DNA from: Pseudomonadota bacterium
Lineage (GTDB): Bacteria; Pseudomonadota; Alphaproteobacteria; Micavibrionales; CSBR16-224
Direction: 5' to 3'
Assembly: GCA_013285465.1 (NCBI GenBank)
Contig: CP053449.1
Span: 805,540-869,539 of the forward strand
DNA length: 64,000 nt
Shown here: positions 17,716 to 25,018 of the stretch, one piece after another
How the letters are laid out: each line of letters begins with the position of its first letter
Numbering within the stretch: position 1 is the first letter of the stretch
Notes under the pieces: model-generated
The model's database searches: none
Told to the model about the DNA's origin: nothing
What the model saw: only the letters and a program-made list of their open reading frames with translations
Program-made: the position numbers and the translations under genes

Positions 17716-17731
17716 TGGCACGGAATCTGCA
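17716..17731 (+). promoter_or_regulatory. Sigma-54 (RpoN) promoter of the flgFGAH operon
   Basis: TGGCACGGAATCTGCA matches the RpoN consensus TGGCAC-N5-TTGC with one change; the invariant GG (17717-17718) and GC (17729-17730) are separated by the required 10 bases. It lies 82 bases before the flgF start. Sigma-54 control of rod and ring genes is established in Caulobacter. Confidence 0.85.
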
Positions 17732-17813: not shown

Positions 17814-18554
17814 ATGGAAAACATTGCATATGTTGCATTGTCGCTTCAGACGGTATTAAACCGCCAGATGCAGGTTACGGCGAATAACGTCGCTAATATG
17901 TCGACCGCCGGATACAAGGCGCAGGGCGTCTTATTCAACGAAGAACTGGCAAAAGCGCAAGGACAGGCGGAAAACAACGGCAAACTGTCGATGGTTCTGG
18001 ATCACGGCACGTTCCGCCGTGTAGAGCAGGGGCCGTTGCAGCAGACGGGTAATCCGCTGGATCTGGCGCTGGAAGGCAGCGGTTTCTTTGAAATTGAAAC
18101 GGCAAACGGTCCGCGCTATTCCCGCGCCGGGAATTTTTCTCTGGATCGTGAAGGGCAGATCGTCACGCAAAACGGCAATCCGGTTTTATCCGATGGCGGG
18201 CAGGCGATCACCATTCCGCAGGGCGACACACAGATTATGATCGCCAATGACGGCACGATTTCCACAGCGGAAAGCGGCATTCTGGGGCGTATCGGCGTTA
18301 TGCGTTTTGATGACGAGCAGAAAATGCTGGAAAACGGTAACGGGCTGTATGACGCGAATGGCGAAGTCGCAATCCCTGCGGAAAATACCAATGTGCTGCA
18401 ATTCATGCTGGAAGGTTCGAATGTGCAGCCGATTTTGGAAATGAACAAGATGATCGAGATTGTACGGAACTATCAGCAAACGCAGCGTTTGCTGCAGACC
18501 GATCACGAAAGGCAGCGCAATGTTATCAGCCGCCTGACGCAGAATGTGAATTAA
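17814..18554 (+). CDS. flgF: Flagellar basal-body proximal rod protein FlgF
   Basis: FlgF is one of the rod proteins that connect the MS ring to the hook through the periplasm. The 246-residue protein has the rod/hook N-terminal heptad region with the ANNVANMSTAGYKAQ motif, the central DLALEGSGFFEI block, and the C-terminal coiled region (EIVRNYQQTQRLLQTDHERQ) needed for axial assembly. There is no signal peptide, as expected for export by the flagellar type III route. It is the first gene behind a sigma-54 promoter, with flgG 49 bases downstream. Confidence 0.93.
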   Translation: MENIAYVALSLQTVLNRQMQVTANNVANMSTAGYKAQGVLFNEELAKAQGQAENNGKLSMVLDHGTFRRVEQGPLQQTGNPLDLALEGSGFFEIETANGPRYSRAGNFSLDREGQIVTQNGNPVLSDGGQAITIPQGDTQIMIANDGTISTAESGILGRIGVMRFDDEQKMLENGNGLYDANGEVAIPAENTNVLQFMLEGSNVQPILEMNKMIEIVRNYQQTQRLLQTDHERQRNVISRLTQNVN

Positions 18555-18603: not shown

Positions 18604-19392
18604 ATGTCCATTACATTAAGCACCGGCGCAACGGGAATGTTGGCACAGCAGCTGAATGTCGACGTGATTTCCAACAACATCGCCAATATGACGACAACAG
18701 GCTATAAACGCCAGCGCGCGGAATTTCAGGATCTGCTGTATCAGAATAAAATCCGCCCCGGCTCAACATCTTCGGATGCCGGCACAACGGTTCCGGCGGG
18801 TATCCAGCTGGGGCTGGGCGTGAAGACCGGATCGGTCTACCGCATCAATGAACAAGGCCCGCTGCAAAACACGGATAATGAATTTGATCTGGCGATTGTC
18901 GGTTCCGGCTATTTCCAAATCACGCTGCCTTCGGGCGAAACGGCTTATACCCGTGACGGCTCGTTTCAGATTAATGAAAACGGCGAGGTTGTGACCTCGG
19001 AAGGCTATCTGCTGGAGCCGAGCATCAGCGTGCCGGATGACGCGATTGATGTGACGATTAACGGCAGCGGCGAGGTGCTGGTCAAAATTCAGGGACAGGT
19101 CGCTTTAAGTAATCTCGGCCAGCTGGAACTGGCGGTCTTCCAAAACCCTGCGGGTCTGGAAGCGGTCGGTGACAACTTGTTCATGGAAACCGAAGGCTCC
19201 GGCGCGGCTGTCATCGGCACACCGAATACGGAAGGTTTCGGCAAGCTGCAGCAAGGCGCATTGGAAACCTCGAATGTGAATGTGGTGCAGGAAATCACCA
19301 ATCTTATTCAGGCGCAGCGCGCCTATGAAATGAATGCCAAAGTCATTCAGGCGGGTGATGAAATGCTGAGCACGATTAACCAGCTTCGTTAA
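18604..19392 (+). CDS. flgG: Flagellar distal rod protein FlgG
   Basis: FlgG forms the distal rod. At 262 residues the length is exactly usual. The N-terminal motif ISNNIANMTTTGYKRQRAEF, the FDLAIVGSGYFQITLPSGE block, and the C-terminal SNVNVVQEITNLIQAQRAYE then KVIQAGDEML sequence are diagnostic of FlgG. AAGGAGAATAAACC gives a strong ribosome-binding site. It follows flgF and precedes flgA, with A-rich linkers between genes. Confidence 0.96.
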   Translation: MSITLSTGATGMLAQQLNVDVISNNIANMTTTGYKRQRAEFQDLLYQNKIRPGSTSSDAGTTVPAGIQLGLGVKTGSVYRINEQGPLQNTDNEFDLAIVGSGYFQITLPSGETAYTRDGSFQINENGEVVTSEGYLLEPSISVPDDAIDVTINGSGEVLVKIQGQVALSNLGQLELAVFQNPAGLEAVGDNLFMETEGSGAAVIGTPNTEGFGKLQQGALETSNVNVVQEITNLIQAQRAYEMNAKVIQAGDEMLSTINQLR

Positions 19393-19459: not shown

Positions 19460-20425
19460 ATGAAAACGAAAAACAACAAGGTGAAAAAGAAATTGTGGCT
19501 GACCGCAGCGACCCTTTCCTGCGCCGTGATGCTTTTCGGTGCGACGGCAAAGGCGGATGTTGCGCTGCCGCCGCAGAACGAGGTCAGACTCGCAGGTGAT
19601 GTCTTGACGTTGGGCGATGTTTTTCAGGATGTCAAAAACAATGCCGGACATGTCTTGGCACCTGCACCCGCACCGGGAAAAACGATCATTCTGACAGCCG
19701 CTGATTTACAGCGCATCGCCGATGCCTTTCATATCTCATGGCAGCCGGACAGCAGCTATACGCGCTTGATTGTGCGCCGTGATGCCGCGCCGGTTTCGCC
19801 GGCAAAAATCAGCGAAGCCTTGAAGAAAAAACTGGCAAGCATCGTCGGCGGCAGCAGTTACGAAATTGACCTTGATAAGCGCTTCGGTGAAATCTATATC
19901 AACGGCACGACCGCGCCGGAAATCAGTGTCACCAATATGGATGTCTCACCGGCGGGCGGACGTTTCGCCGCCAATCTGTCGCTGACAACGCCGCAATTGA
20001 CCAAAAACGTCAATATCACCGGCATGGCGCACCGTGTTCTGGACGTGCCGGTCTTGAACCGTCGCTTGCGTAACGGAGATGTGATTGAGGCAAGCGATAT
20101 CGAATTCATCCGCATGCGCGCGGATAATGTGGCGGAAAGCGCCATTCTGGATCCGGAAAAACTGATAGGTCAAACACCGCGCCGCGTACTGGACGCAATG
20201 GAAACGGTTCTGCCGGACAATATCGCAGCACCGCTTGCCGTGAAAAAAGGTGAATATGTGACCCTGTTCCTGACGCAAGGCGGTCTGCATCTGACGGCAC
20301 GCGGCAAGGCGCTTGAAAACGGTGCGGCAGGTGATGTCGTACGGGTGGTAAATACGGCTTCCAGCCGGATTATCGAAGGCGAGGTTGTCGGCGCGCAAAG
20401 TGTCCGCATCGCTGCTGCAATGTAA
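19460..20425 (+). CDS. flgA: Flagellar P-ring assembly chaperone FlgA
   Basis: FlgA is a periplasmic chaperone for FlgI P-ring assembly. The 321-residue protein starts with a basic N-terminus and hydrophobic signal segment (LTAATLSCAVMLFGATAKA, cleavage after about residue 32), and ends with the SAF/FlgA domain: VLNRRLRNGDVIEASDIEF, IGQTPRRVL and VRVVNTASSRIIEGEV. It is longer than the E. coli protein, typical of alphaproteobacterial FlgA. It lies between flgG and flgH. Confidence 0.9.
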   Translation: MKTKNNKVKKKLWLTAATLSCAVMLFGATAKADVALPPQNEVRLAGDVLTLGDVFQDVKNNAGHVLAPAPAPGKTIILTAADLQRIADAFHISWQPDSSYTRLIVRRDAAPVSPAKISEALKKKLASIVGGSSYEIDLDKRFGEIYINGTTAPEISVTNMDVSPAGGRFAANLSLTTPQLTKNVNITGMAHRVLDVPVLNRRLRNGDVIEASDIEFIRMRADNVAESAILDPEKLIGQTPRRVLDAMETVLPDNIAAPLAVKKGEYVTLFLTQGGLHLTARGKALENGAAGDVVRVVNTASSRIIEGEVVGAQSVRIAAAM

Positions 20426-20502: not shown

Positions 20503-21270
20503 ATGAACAGGATTTTCGACGGAAAAATTGCCAAAATCGCCGCAGTCAGTTTTCTGGCACTTAGCCTGACGGCTTGCGGCAGTACGCGTGACAGACTCGC
20601 CGCCGTCGGGCAGGAGCCGCCGCTCAGCCCGATTGAAAACCCGAAAGAAATGTCCGGCTATCGCCCGGTCAGCTTGCCGATGCCCGAACTGGAAGACGTC
20701 GAGAAAAAAGCGAATTCACTCTGGACATCAGGACGTCAGGCATTCTTTAAAGACCAGCGCGCCAATGCGGTCGGCGATATTCTGACGGTGACGATTGATA
20801 TCAAGGATAAAGCCAATCTGGAAAACACGACCAGCCGTACCCGCAATAATGCGGAAAATGTCGGCTTGCCGAATGTGCTGGGGCTTGAAACCCAGCTGAC
20901 GGATAAATTCCTGCCCGAAGCCTTTGATCCTGCCGCCGCAATCGGTGCGACCAGTGACAGCAATTCGACAGGGCAGGGCACGATCGAACGCGATGAGGAA
21001 ATCCAGACAAAAATGGCGGCAATGATTACCGAGGTCCTGCCAAACGGCAATTTCGTGATCTACGGGCGTCAGGAAACACGCGTTAATTTCGAAGTGCGCG
21101 AGCTGAAAATCGCGGGCGTTATCCGCCCCGAAGACATCTCGACGCAAAATTCCATCAGCTATGATCAAATCGCCGAGGCGCGTATTTCCTACGGCGGCCG
21201 GGGACAAATCACGGATGTTCAGCAGCCTCGCTATGGCCAGCAGGTGTTCGACATTCTGTTCCCGTTCTAA
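20503..21270 (+). CDS. flgH: Flagellar L-ring lipoprotein FlgH
   Basis: FlgH builds the outer-membrane L ring around the rod. A lipobox LALSLTAC places the lipidated cysteine at residue 25. The mature part shows the FlgH pattern: SLWTSGRQAFFKDQRANAVG, DILTVTIDIKDKANLENTT, NGNFVIYGRQETRVNFEVRE, GVIRPEDISTQNSI and the C-terminal GRGQITDVQQPRYGQQVFD. The ribosome-binding site AAGGAGAT is strong. It is the last flagellar gene of the operon, followed by a hairpin-rich stretch and a terminator. Confidence 0.95.
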   Translation: MNRIFDGKIAKIAAVSFLALSLTACGSTRDRLAAVGQEPPLSPIENPKEMSGYRPVSLPMPELEDVEKKANSLWTSGRQAFFKDQRANAVGDILTVTIDIKDKANLENTTSRTRNNAENVGLPNVLGLETQLTDKFLPEAFDPAAAIGATSDSNSTGQGTIERDEEIQTKMAAMITEVLPNGNFVIYGRQETRVNFEVRELKIAGVIRPEDISTQNSISYDQIAEARISYGGRGQITDVQQPRYGQQVFDILFPF

Positions 21271-21274
21271 AAAC

Positions 21275-21448
21275 CAGGTAACCCTGCCGGAGAATCCGGT
21301 TCTCTCGGAGCAGAAGCTCCTCCCTCCTTTGAAGACCACACGGAATTATTCAAGTTTACTACTCACCTCTCATCTCTCTTGGGGAGACTATTATCCCCAA
21401 AACTTATACGGTCGGTTTTCGCTTTTGCGGCAACCGGCCGCTTTTTTT
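21275..21448 (+). ncRNA. Candidate structured RNA downstream of flgH with anti-SD motif
   Basis: The non-coding stretch contains three short hairpins in a row: GAGAA/TTCTC, GGAGC/GCTCC (loop AGAA) and GGGGA/TCCCC, and then a terminator. The second hairpin is directly followed by CTCCTCCCTCC (21317-21327), complementary to a Shine-Dalgarno sequence and like the CCUCCUCCC motif of alphaproteobacterial trans-acting small RNAs. It could be a 3'-UTR-derived sRNA of the flagellar operon or an independent transcript. No start site is defined; the boundaries are approximate. Confidence 0.45.
21409..21448 (+). terminator. Rho-independent terminator of the flgFGAH transcript
   Basis: CGGTCGGTT pairs with AACCGGCCG (one G-T wobble) around a 14-base loop, followed by CTTTTTTT. 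It lies about 140 bases after flgH and 76 bases before the next gene. Confidence 0.85.
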
Positions 21449-21524
21449 CTTACTCTTGGCATAGGCGGCGCACGGCTTTATACTGTTTTGTACATAGAAA
21501 ACATAAAGGGAAGGACGGGCAGGG

Positions 21525-22040
21525 ATGAGTGCTGTCAAACAGGTTGAAACACCGGAACCGCTGAAACAAAAACTGGATGCGCTGGGCATTGCGGCAAAAA
21601 CCGTAGAACATGCACCGCTGTTTACGGTGGAGGATGGCGCGGATATCCGTCATCACTTCCGCGGCGGCCACACAAAGAACCTGTTTTTGAAAGATAAAAA
21701 AGGCCAGCTTTGGCTGGTGGTGGCGGAACACGGCACAAAAGTGGATATGAACTGGCTGCAGAAACGCCTTCCCTCGGGGCGGCTGTCATTCGGCAAACCG
21801 GATCTGATGCTGGAGGTGCTGGGCGTGACGCCGGGGTCGGTGACGCCGTTTTCACTTATGAATGATACGGATTGCCGTGTGATTGCGGTTCTGGATAAAA
21901 AACTGCTGGATGATTTCGAGGTGCTGAATTTTCACCCGCTCAGCAATGACAAAACCACGGAAATCACGCCGCAGGATTTGCTGAAATTCATTGACTCCTG
22001 CGGCCATAAAACTGTTATTGTAGATTTTCTCAAAGGATAA
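21525..22040 (+). CDS. Prolyl-tRNA deacylase (ProXp-ala / YbaK-EbsC family)
   Basis: Free-standing INS-like editing proteins hydrolyse mischarged Ala-tRNA(Pro). The 171-residue protein carries the YbaK/EbsC fold signatures: TVEHAPLFTVEDGADI, GGHTKNLFLKDKKGQLWLVV with the conserved lysine, LSFGKPDLMLEVLGVTPGSVTPF (shown in blocks), and NFHPLSNDKTTEI. The GVTPGSVTPF and NFHP blocks match the ProXp-ala/PrdX subgroup that is frequent in alphaproteobacteria. It lies 17 bases before the CnoX-like gene. Confidence 0.85.
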   Translation: MSAVKQVETPEPLKQKLDALGIAAKTVEHAPLFTVEDGADIRHHFRGGHTKNLFLKDKKGQLWLVVAEHGTKVDMNWLQKRLPSGRLSFGKPDLMLEVLGVTPGSVTPFSLMNDTDCRVIAVLDKKLLDDFEVLNFHPLSNDKTTEITPQDLLKFIDSCGHKTVIVDFLKG

Positions 22041-23251: not shown

Positions 23252-24040
23252 GTGTTATTTTTAAAAAAACGTGCCCCGAAACCTCCTCCTGACAGCAAAC
23301 CGGTTCTGGACTGGCTGCCGCAAAACCTTGCTGCCTCGCTTGCTGAGGCGGGGTTTGATGCCGAACAGGCTTTGGCCGTGAAACACAGCACGCGCGCACG
23401 GCGTTTATCTCTGCGCACCAATGTCAAAGCGCGGCAGATTGTGCTGACCTTTCCGGCTGCGGCAACATGGCGGCAGGCACAGGAATTTGTCGCAGATCAG
23501 CAAAGATGGATTTTGTCGCAGATTCGTCAGATCAGCGCGGCGGCAGTGATATTGCAGGATGGTGAGACATTCCCTTTTCTGGGAGAGCCGCATCTGATTT
23601 CCGCCACCGGAAAATTGCGCGGCGCGGCGGAACGGCGCGACGGTATTCTTTATATGGCCGGGGCGCCCGAACATATTCCCCGCCGCGTACGCGATTATCT
23701 GACGGCGCAGGCGCGGGAGGAAATTTCATGGCGGGCGCGGGAAAAGGCCGAAAGCATCGGGCGTAAAATCTCCCGTATCCGTATCGGTGACCCGCATAGC
23801 CGCTGGGGCAGCTGTTCTTCGCAAGGCGTGTTGTCTTTTTCCTGGCGGCTGGTGATGGCACCGGAAGAAATGCTGGATTACGTTGTCGCGCATGAAGTTG
23901 CCCATCTGCGGCATATGGATCACAGCCGCGCATTCTGGACGCTTTGTCAAAGCCTGACCGAGACAAATGTTTCAAAATCCCGAAAATGGTTTAAAGTGGA
24001 GGGTGCAAAACTTTTTTCGTATCACGGGGGAGCGATATGA
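23252..24040 (+). CDS. YgjP-like zinc metallopeptidase (SprT/DUF45 family)
   Basis: The 262-residue protein has the gluzincin motif VVAHEVAHLRHMDHSRAFW, where HEVAH supplies two zinc ligands and the following His the third, with the RWGSCS block (SRWGSCSSQGVLSFSWRL) upstream. This is the YgjP-like M48-related family (DUF45). Translation starts at a GTG (23252); no other start is available before the homology. It overlaps the next gene by 4 bases (ATGA). Confidence 0.87.
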   Translation: MLFLKKRAPKPPPDSKPVLDWLPQNLAASLAEAGFDAEQALAVKHSTRARRLSLRTNVKARQIVLTFPAAATWRQAQEFVADQQRWILSQIRQISAAAVILQDGETFPFLGEPHLISATGKLRGAAERRDGILYMAGAPEHIPRRVRDYLTAQAREEISWRAREKAESIGRKISRIRIGDPHSRWGSCSSQGVLSFSWRLVMAPEEMLDYVVAHEVAHLRHMDHSRAFWTLCQSLTETNVSKSRKWFKVEGAKLFSYHGGAI

Positions 24041-24594
24041 GCGACGATTTTCAAAACGGTAATAACGCAGGCGGCACGGAAGAATCTGTCGGGCGGGAAC
24101 GGCAGCAGGTGCAGAGCTCCTCTGCAACGCCGCAATCACAGCAGCATAAACCCGCGCCGCAAGCTGTAGAAGAAAACCCGAAACTCAGGGCTTTGAAACG
24201 CACGGCAAAGGCGGAAATTTATCTCAGCACATTGAAAGAAGGCCGCCTGCTATGGGCGATGCTGGATATGGCGGTTGTCTGGCTGATTATCACAATGTTC
24301 CAGATGGGATGGGATAAGGATATTTCACTGTTTTCGGGGGTCGGCATTATTTATGTCTCTGCGGGGCTAACCTTTTTTATCGAGATTTTCGGCGTGTTGA
24401 ATTATATGACGCGTGAGGCGATTTTCAAAAGCATGGTCGATAAGGCTGTGCGGCGGGGGCAAAATTATAAAATCCCGAAAAAGACACTGCTGACGGTGCG
24501 CTGGGGCAGCAATGCTTTTTGGTTTATCGTGCATTTCATTCTGTCTTTTTACACGCTGGAGGTAACAAAAAATGTTGCCTCGGCCATGTTCTGA
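24037..24594 (+). CDS. Multi-pass membrane protein, unknown (paralog A1)
   Basis: I recognise no family. A Gln/Ser-rich cytoplasmic N-terminus of about 50 residues is followed by a helix, two adjacent hydrophobic segments (MLDMAVVWLIITMF and IIYVSAGLTFFIEIFGVLNY), a basic loop and a third C-terminal segment (FWFIVHFILSFYTLEV). The block EIFGVLNYMTREAIF recurs as EVFGVLNYLTRKMFF in the next gene, so the two are paralogs. The start overlaps the YgjP-like gene by 4 bases. Confidence 0.75.
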   Translation: MSDDFQNGNNAGGTEESVGRERQQVQSSSATPQSQQHKPAPQAVEENPKLRALKRTAKAEIYLSTLKEGRLLWAMLDMAVVWLIITMFQMGWDKDISLFSGVGIIYVSAGLTFFIEIFGVLNYMTREAIFKSMVDKAVRRGQNYKIPKKTLLTVRWGSNAFWFIVHFILSFYTLEVTKNVASAMF

Positions 24595-25018
24595 TTGCGC
24601 TTTGATGCCGACAAAGAAAAACCGCGCGATCAAACGGACATCGGATGACGAAATTCTTCTGCATAGTTTAAGGCAGGTCAATCTGATGCTGGCCTTGTCT
24701 GATACAAGCTGGAGCTGGTTTGCGATGACTGTCGGGCTGTTCTGGTATTATGATGATCTGGTCTTTCTCAGCAGCGCAGGGCTGACCTTTACCGCCTGCG
24801 GTCTTCTGATGTTTGTCGAAGTGTTCGGCGTGTTGAACTATCTGACGCGCAAAATGTTCTTCGGACGGATGTTGCGCCGGATCAAGCGTAACAAAACAGC
24901 GGCAAAAAATATTGTCGGCGAAATGCGGCGCTTTGGCTGGATGGTGGATATGTTCTGGCTGCCGCTGCTGTTCCTGTGCTGCTTTTTCACGGCGGATTTT
25001 CTAAAAACGACAATGTGA
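24572..25018 (+). CDS. Multi-pass membrane protein, unknown (paralog A2)
   Basis: The 148-residue protein has three hydrophobic segments (WFAMTVGLFWYY, LSSAGLTFTACGLLMFVEVF, MFWLPLLFLCCFFTADFL) and the shared block EVFGVLNYLTRKMFFGRML. The ATG at 24572 is chosen although it overlaps the previous gene by 23 bases, because GGAGGT lies 8 bases before it inside that gene; an ATG at 24605 would avoid the overlap but has no ribosome-binding site. It lacks the long polar N-terminus of its paralog. Confidence 0.7.
   Translation: MLPRPCSDCALMPTKKNRAIKRTSDDEILLHSLRQVNLMLALSDTSWSWFAMTVGLFWYYDDLVFLSSAGLTFTACGLLMFVEVFGVLNYLTRKMFFGRMLRRIKRNKTAAKNIVGEMRRFGWMVDMFWLPLLFLCCFFTADFLKTTM

Follow-up and report, generated by a model that had tools for sequence, protein, structure and literature searches.

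What does the non-coding DNA behind the flagellar gene flgH do, and is it simply the end of an mRNA or the source of a trans-acting small RNA (sRNA)? The stretch in question (21275-21448) lies in a 64,000-nucleotide piece of DNA, called the window here, from a genome of 2.67 Mb in a single contig. Throughout, the order is the one to which GTDB assigns Micavibrio, a placement that we infer; NCBI places the genus Micavibrio under Bdellovibrionota.

The stretch follows four flagellar genes on the forward strand. These are a flgF-like (17814..18554; Pfam Flg_bb_rod, LlgE_F_G_D1 and Flg_bbr_C) and a flgG-like (18604..19392; Pfam) basal-body rod gene, flgA for the P-ring chaperone (19460..20425; Pfam ChapFlgA) and flgH for the L-ring protein (20503..21270; Pfam FlgH, 2e-56), whose stop codon occupies 21268-21270 and whose mRNA bears the element as its 3′UTR. 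Ahead of flgF, TGGCACGGAATCTGCA (17716..17731, forward strand) differs at one position from TGGCACN5TTGCA, the sigma-54 (-24/-12) type consensus, at a distance of 83-98 nt from the gene. Counterpart sites before flgF in the related genomes G001, G002 and G003 have one, two and one mismatches, respectively, and a promoter of this type is common to four genomes of two genera, the window's included. Since matches to the sigma-54 consensus across the whole window are no more frequent than expected by chance, the assignment relies on position and conservation, which suggest that flgF-flgG-flgA-flgH is under RpoN control. The next gene after the terminator encodes a tRNA-editing domain protein (21525-22040; Pfam tRNA_edit), and its sigma-70-like promoter (21456..21484, forward strand; 10/12 consensus positions) shows where the flagellar transcription unit ends. 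The stretch that the initial annotation had placed after a flagellar operon is the conserved 3′UTR of flgF-flgG-flgA-flgH. Read by eye, many other alphaproteobacteria (L068, L074, L098, L099 and others) have an apparent convergent dksA-like gene after flgH, whereas the neighbour in the window's genome is the tRNA-editing gene.

Does the 3′UTR possess a promoter of its own? A consensus scan detected neither a sigma-70 nor a sigma-54 promoter directly ahead of it, and synonymous sites at the end of flgH are not consistently more conserved, as a conserved promoter there might have made them. Any sRNA would therefore derive from the operon mRNA.

Three small hairpins, the C-rich sequence CTCCTCCCTCC and a strong intrinsic terminator are found between the flgH stop codon and 21448, all on the forward strand. 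Hairpin 1 (GCCGGAGAATCCGG, 21286..21299) has the loop GAA, hairpin 2 (GGAGC-AGAA-GCTCC, in RNA GGAGC-AGAA-GCUCC; 21307..21320) the loop AGAA and hairpin 3 (TTGGGGA...TCCCCAA, 21379..21400) the loop GACUAUUA; the terminator (21409..21448) combines a stem at 21409-21440 with a T7 run (U7) at 21442-21448. The minimum free energy of -54.6 kcal/mol compares with a shuffle mean of -41.1 (sd 3.9; z -3.43), and 0 of 200 shuffles were equally stable, with the terminator supplying much of the excess. This confirms the three hairpins and strong terminator that had been read earlier in this non-coding stretch.

The position of the C-rich stretch CTCCTCCCTCC (CUCCUCCCUCC as RNA; 21317..21327, forward strand), the candidate seed judged from sequence, fold and relatives, needs some refinement. 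It had been described as lying just behind hairpin 2, which is true of TCCCTCC (UCCCUCC, 21321-21327), predicted to be exposed with an unpaired probability of 0.81-0.96, but not of the first CTCC, which is the 3′ arm of hairpin 2 itself (0.01-0.02). CTCCTCCCTCC has one copy in the 2.67 Mb genome, about the chance expectation for an 11-mer; it is therefore weak by itself, and its credibility comes from conservation. A DNA search of the same genome, which encodes Hfq, returned no paralogue of the element, and Rfam reported no family at gathering score over the whole window.

In G001 (93% identical), G002 and G003 the architecture after flgH is identical. Three congeners have 138, 139 and 132 nt from stop codon to terminator, and because the length differences are not multiples of three, the stretch is non-coding. 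Since MAFFT misaligned the short hairpins, the hairpin arms were aligned by hand before base pairs were counted, a procedure that leans towards the named structure; on this alignment of few sequences, every compared pair is retained in the relatives for all four hairpins. Two of the four compared pairs of hairpin 1 are swapped for other pairs with both sides changed. In hairpin 2, three of five pairs have substitutions in both arms in G003 or G006, with the AGAA loop end unaltered; hairpin 3 shows such double substitutions at four of seven pairs in G002; and in the terminator, two of nine stem pairs differ in both arms in G003, and a further pair has changed in one arm. The position of the seed reads ACCCCUCC in G002 and G003. 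A lack of covariation had been named beforehand as grounds for giving up the sRNA proposal, and compensatory changes are what the relatives present. To judge from them, the hairpins and the terminator are under selection in the window's genus and its sister genus. Given the few sequences and the by-eye alignment, this is evidence for selection on structure, not for function.

What might the structure be selected for? The stretch may be no more than the operon's terminator with additional protective hairpins at the 3′ end that shield the flagellar mRNA from 3′ exonucleases, in which case the C-rich stretch would have no partner in trans. We take this as a serious possibility of clearly less than even probability. 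Stable hairpins with a terminator are usual at 3′ ends, the stretch is flanked by flgH and a gene that has a promoter to itself, and it has neither a separate consensus promoter nor a paralogue in the genome. However, protection leaves unexplained the retention of hairpins 1 and 2, which lie at a distance from the terminator, and the persistence across genera of a C-rich motif ahead of the flgH terminator that is rare at the other terminators of the order.

This last point comes from the flgH 3′UTRs of about 30 genera, in which a UUACCCACCCAACU-like motif recurs just ahead of the terminator. Of the 14 positions of the UUACCCACCCAACU consensus, at least 10 agree in 29 flgH 3′UTRs, almost all of them belonging to the order, and no more than 9 agree in the flgH UTRs of Rhodospirillales, Rhizobiales and Thalassospira; in a FlgH tree, 27 of the 28 labelled rows fall within the half containing the order. 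Within the order, the motif is absent or diverged in many genomes. A G-free 8-mer with at least six C is present in 17/24 flgH UTRs as against 3/46 other terminators of the order's genomes, with a Fisher p of 3e-8 that is optimistic for sequences related by descent; the background was drawn from a loosened terminator finder, and several of its terminators are doubtful. When only longer UTRs are compared, the counts are 17/22 and 3/27 (p 5e-6). The background counts rule out that the motif is a general property of terminators. A genome-wide repeat is likewise rejected: the exact ACCCACCCAACT occurs just four times in 55 genomes, once behind flgH. The order-wide motif is mostly unpaired (mean 0.69), and an upstream hairpin is clearly above shuffle stability in 8 of the 29 UTRs only. 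Across much of the order, then, flgH 3′UTRs retain a C-rich motif, predicted to be mostly unpaired, directly before the terminator.

How does the window relate to this motif? The order-wide form is CCCACCC, whereas the window's genus has CUCCCUCC / ACCCCUCC. In this genus the position held by UUACCCACCCAACU elsewhere is occupied by UCCCCAAAACUUAUA, which comprises the 3′ arm of hairpin 3 plus a linker and is half buried in that hairpin, and hairpin 2 is followed by a second C-rich stretch. A covariance model, R1, was built from nine flgH 3′UTRs and run on 55 whole genomes. With E up to 1 it recovered the flgH 3′UTR in twelve genomes (G014, G017, G020, G037, G040, G042, G045, G046, G048, G049, G052 and G053), as its best match in seven of them (G014, G017, G037, G040, G042, G045 and G053). 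G039 and G051, which are training sites, and G018, perhaps close to one, are set aside from this count; the G040 sequence is the same as that of the training locus L114, and by sequence check eleven genomes are independent of the training. The covariance search in related genomes that had been proposed for this RNA thus reached flgH 3′UTRs beyond the training set. On the window's own genome R1 did not recover the element. For this reason, and because UCCCCAAAACUUAUA is half buried in hairpin 3 and a second C-rich stretch is present, the window's version is a derived form, and it is position and composition that suggest a link between CUCCUCCCUCC and the order-wide motif. The anti-Shine-Dalgarno label of the initial annotation fits this genus and the sister genus, but does not carry over to the order, whose motif resembles CCCACCC and not CCUCC.

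Comparable sites were also seen behind other genes. In G048, a flgH-like UUUACCCCCCCAAA with a terminator lies directly behind a lysozyme-like gene (C27; L194 around 1501-1552) and has an R1 score slightly above that of the flgH site of the same genome; in G012, CUUUACUCACUCACCC with a terminator lies behind an RpoH-like sigma factor gene (C6; L196 around 1501-1550).

The C-rich motif might also serve to bind a protein or Hfq, acting as a sponge or as a stability or localisation signal on the flgH mRNA rather than as a pairing seed; E. coli FlgO, which binds Hfq strongly and has few targets, would be a parallel (PMC10578931). The motif is short, mostly unpaired and near the terminator, and the drift between CCCACCC and CCCUCC with C-richness kept is what a site read by composition would allow. 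To our knowledge, no protein of such a motif-binding type has been described for these bacteria, which counts against a binding site, and we regard it as rather improbable.

Does the element belong to a known sRNA family? The nearest in layout are the alpha-r8 sRNAs (MmgR of Sinorhizobium meliloti, SisA-D of Caulobacter crescentus; RF00519, suhB), with a hairpin, an exposed C-rich or anti-Shine-Dalgarno stretch and a Rho-independent terminator in an Hfq-encoding alphaproteobacterial host. Unlike them, the element is located in a flagellar operon 3′UTR without a recognisable promoter of its own, and a further hairpin separates its C-rich stretch from the terminator. In alpha-r8 sRNAs, a single-stranded 10-nt UUUCCUCCCU is found downstream of a weak hairpin, together with a terminator (PMC12559287). 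The element has the Rho-independent terminator, and what comes closest to the core is GCUCCUCCCU at 21316-21325, half paired in hairpin 2, a position at which the relatives read ACCCCUCC or ACCCACCC. For a diverged member of the MmgR/SisA family one can point to the matching order of hairpin, C-rich stretch and terminator, to the window's UCCUCCCU, which has 8/10 letters of the alpha-r8 core, and to a full-length but weak RF00519 match of 21.5 bits (21368-21455). The gathering score, however, is 41, the match spans hairpin 3 and not CUCCUCCCUCC, and the 10-mer UUUCCUCCCU is absent, so that membership is largely refuted and a diverged member is highly improbable. The gathering score (41 bits) was reached by 0/55 genomes of the order under stricter filters and by 1/14 controls. 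Similarly weak suhB matches are scattered over 52/55 order genomes and 13/14 controls, and since they occur in nearly all of them they are dismissed as terminator noise, with an unusual number right behind flgH. A weak ncS025 match was also rejected as family membership.

In SmelA075 and SmelA099 of Rhizobiales, every hairpin loop carries CCUCCUCCC (PMC3927594). The element has CUCCUCCC-type anti-Shine-Dalgarno letters like these RNAs (PMC3927594), but its motif overlaps a stem and the 3′ flank, and none of the loops of hairpins 1-3 has CCUCCUCCC, which excludes membership. The comparison with known alphaproteobacterial sRNA families, which had been held out as a check, accordingly gave membership neither in RF00519 nor among the CCUCCUCCC-loop RNAs. 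The CUCCUCCC-type motif of SmelA075/099 is carried by CcsR RNAs as well.

CcsR1-4 of Rhodobacter sphaeroides are cut from an mRNA 3′UTR (PMC8625941), and UdsC of Rhodobacter is a further precedent for 3′UTR processing (PMC8625941, PMC9779115). In E. coli, FlgO and FliX are processed from the flagellar mRNAs of flgL and fliC, respectively, and their expression is tied to flagellar gene control (PMC10578931). The origin in the 3′UTR of a flagellar gene is shared with the element; flgL and fliC, however, are under sigma-28 whereas the element's operon is sigma-54-type, and FlgO and FliX have been shown experimentally whereas the element is predicted from sequence.

We favour, at close to but somewhat short of an even chance, that the stretch is the structured 3′UTR of the sigma-54-type flgF-flgG-flgA-flgH operon and that its tail is processed to a trans-acting Hfq sRNA. 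By fold and conservation, it is a conserved, folded 3′UTR closing a flagellar operon, with its C-rich part predicted to be exposed; as a lineage-specific flagellar 3′UTR, it is probably the source of a 3′UTR-derived sRNA of Hfq type. As in 3′UTR-derived sRNAs generally, it lies within an mRNA 3′UTR, ends at the operon's intrinsic terminator and has a conserved structure and exposed segment, the latter derived in the window's genus. The layout, with an upstream hairpin in some genera, a C-rich stretch and a terminator with a U-run, is that of terminator-ended Hfq-type sRNAs. Following transcription of the operon, the 3′ tail would be cut from the mRNA by RNase E type processing, the likeliest route because the UTR has no recognisable promoter, and would persist as a terminator-ended RNA of roughly 60-175 nt on Hfq. 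The exposed C-rich stretch would then pair with G-rich sites of other mRNAs, which in the window's genus may include Shine-Dalgarno regions such as GGAGGGAG, and pairing would lower translation of the targets during flagella building. Given the order-wide form CCCACCC, Shine-Dalgarno pairing is not expected there.

Which mRNAs might be paired? The anti-Shine-Dalgarno target scan gave 19 sites as against 8 for the reversed control, and the candidates include GAGGGAG at Shine-Dalgarno distance from seven credible genes, with predicted duplexes of -14 to -22 kcal/mol. Cytochrome c1, ferredoxin, HlyD-like and NarK-like genes are among the candidates with GAGGGAG. The scan returned ordinary Shine-Dalgarno sites of unrelated genes and no flagellar set, and we count the GAGGGAG candidates as Shine-Dalgarno-like matches only. 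The shift of the motif between the genus (CUCCCUCC / ACCCCUCC) and the order (CCCACCC) fits poorly with a single conserved target set. Counting further against the processed sRNA, the motif is absent from a sizeable share of the order's genomes, R1 misses the element in the window's own genome, the UTR has no consensus promoter ahead of it, few of the 29 UTRs have a clearly stable upstream hairpin, and the terminator by itself would explain part of the structure. A bolder version seems unlikely to us: that the flgH 3′UTR encodes a new family of sRNAs, found only in Micavibrio-like alphaproteobacteria, which stands in for the alpha-r8 sRNAs missing there and uses its C-rich seed to pass the flagellar programme on to metabolic and surface genes.

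Members of the order are often known only from metagenome assemblies, RNA regulation in them is little known, and a literature search for Micavibrio and small RNA found no dedicated work. An sRNA processed from the tail, if there is one, would link the building of flagella to the expression of other genes in a group with predatory members, and would suggest a separate origin of flagellar 3′UTR sRNAs in alphaproteobacteria. Elsewhere in the window, two adjacent open reading frames of 185 and 148 aa (24037-25018) look like tandem paralogues, each coding for a small membrane protein (FIEIFGVLNYMTR / FVEVFGVLNYLTR).
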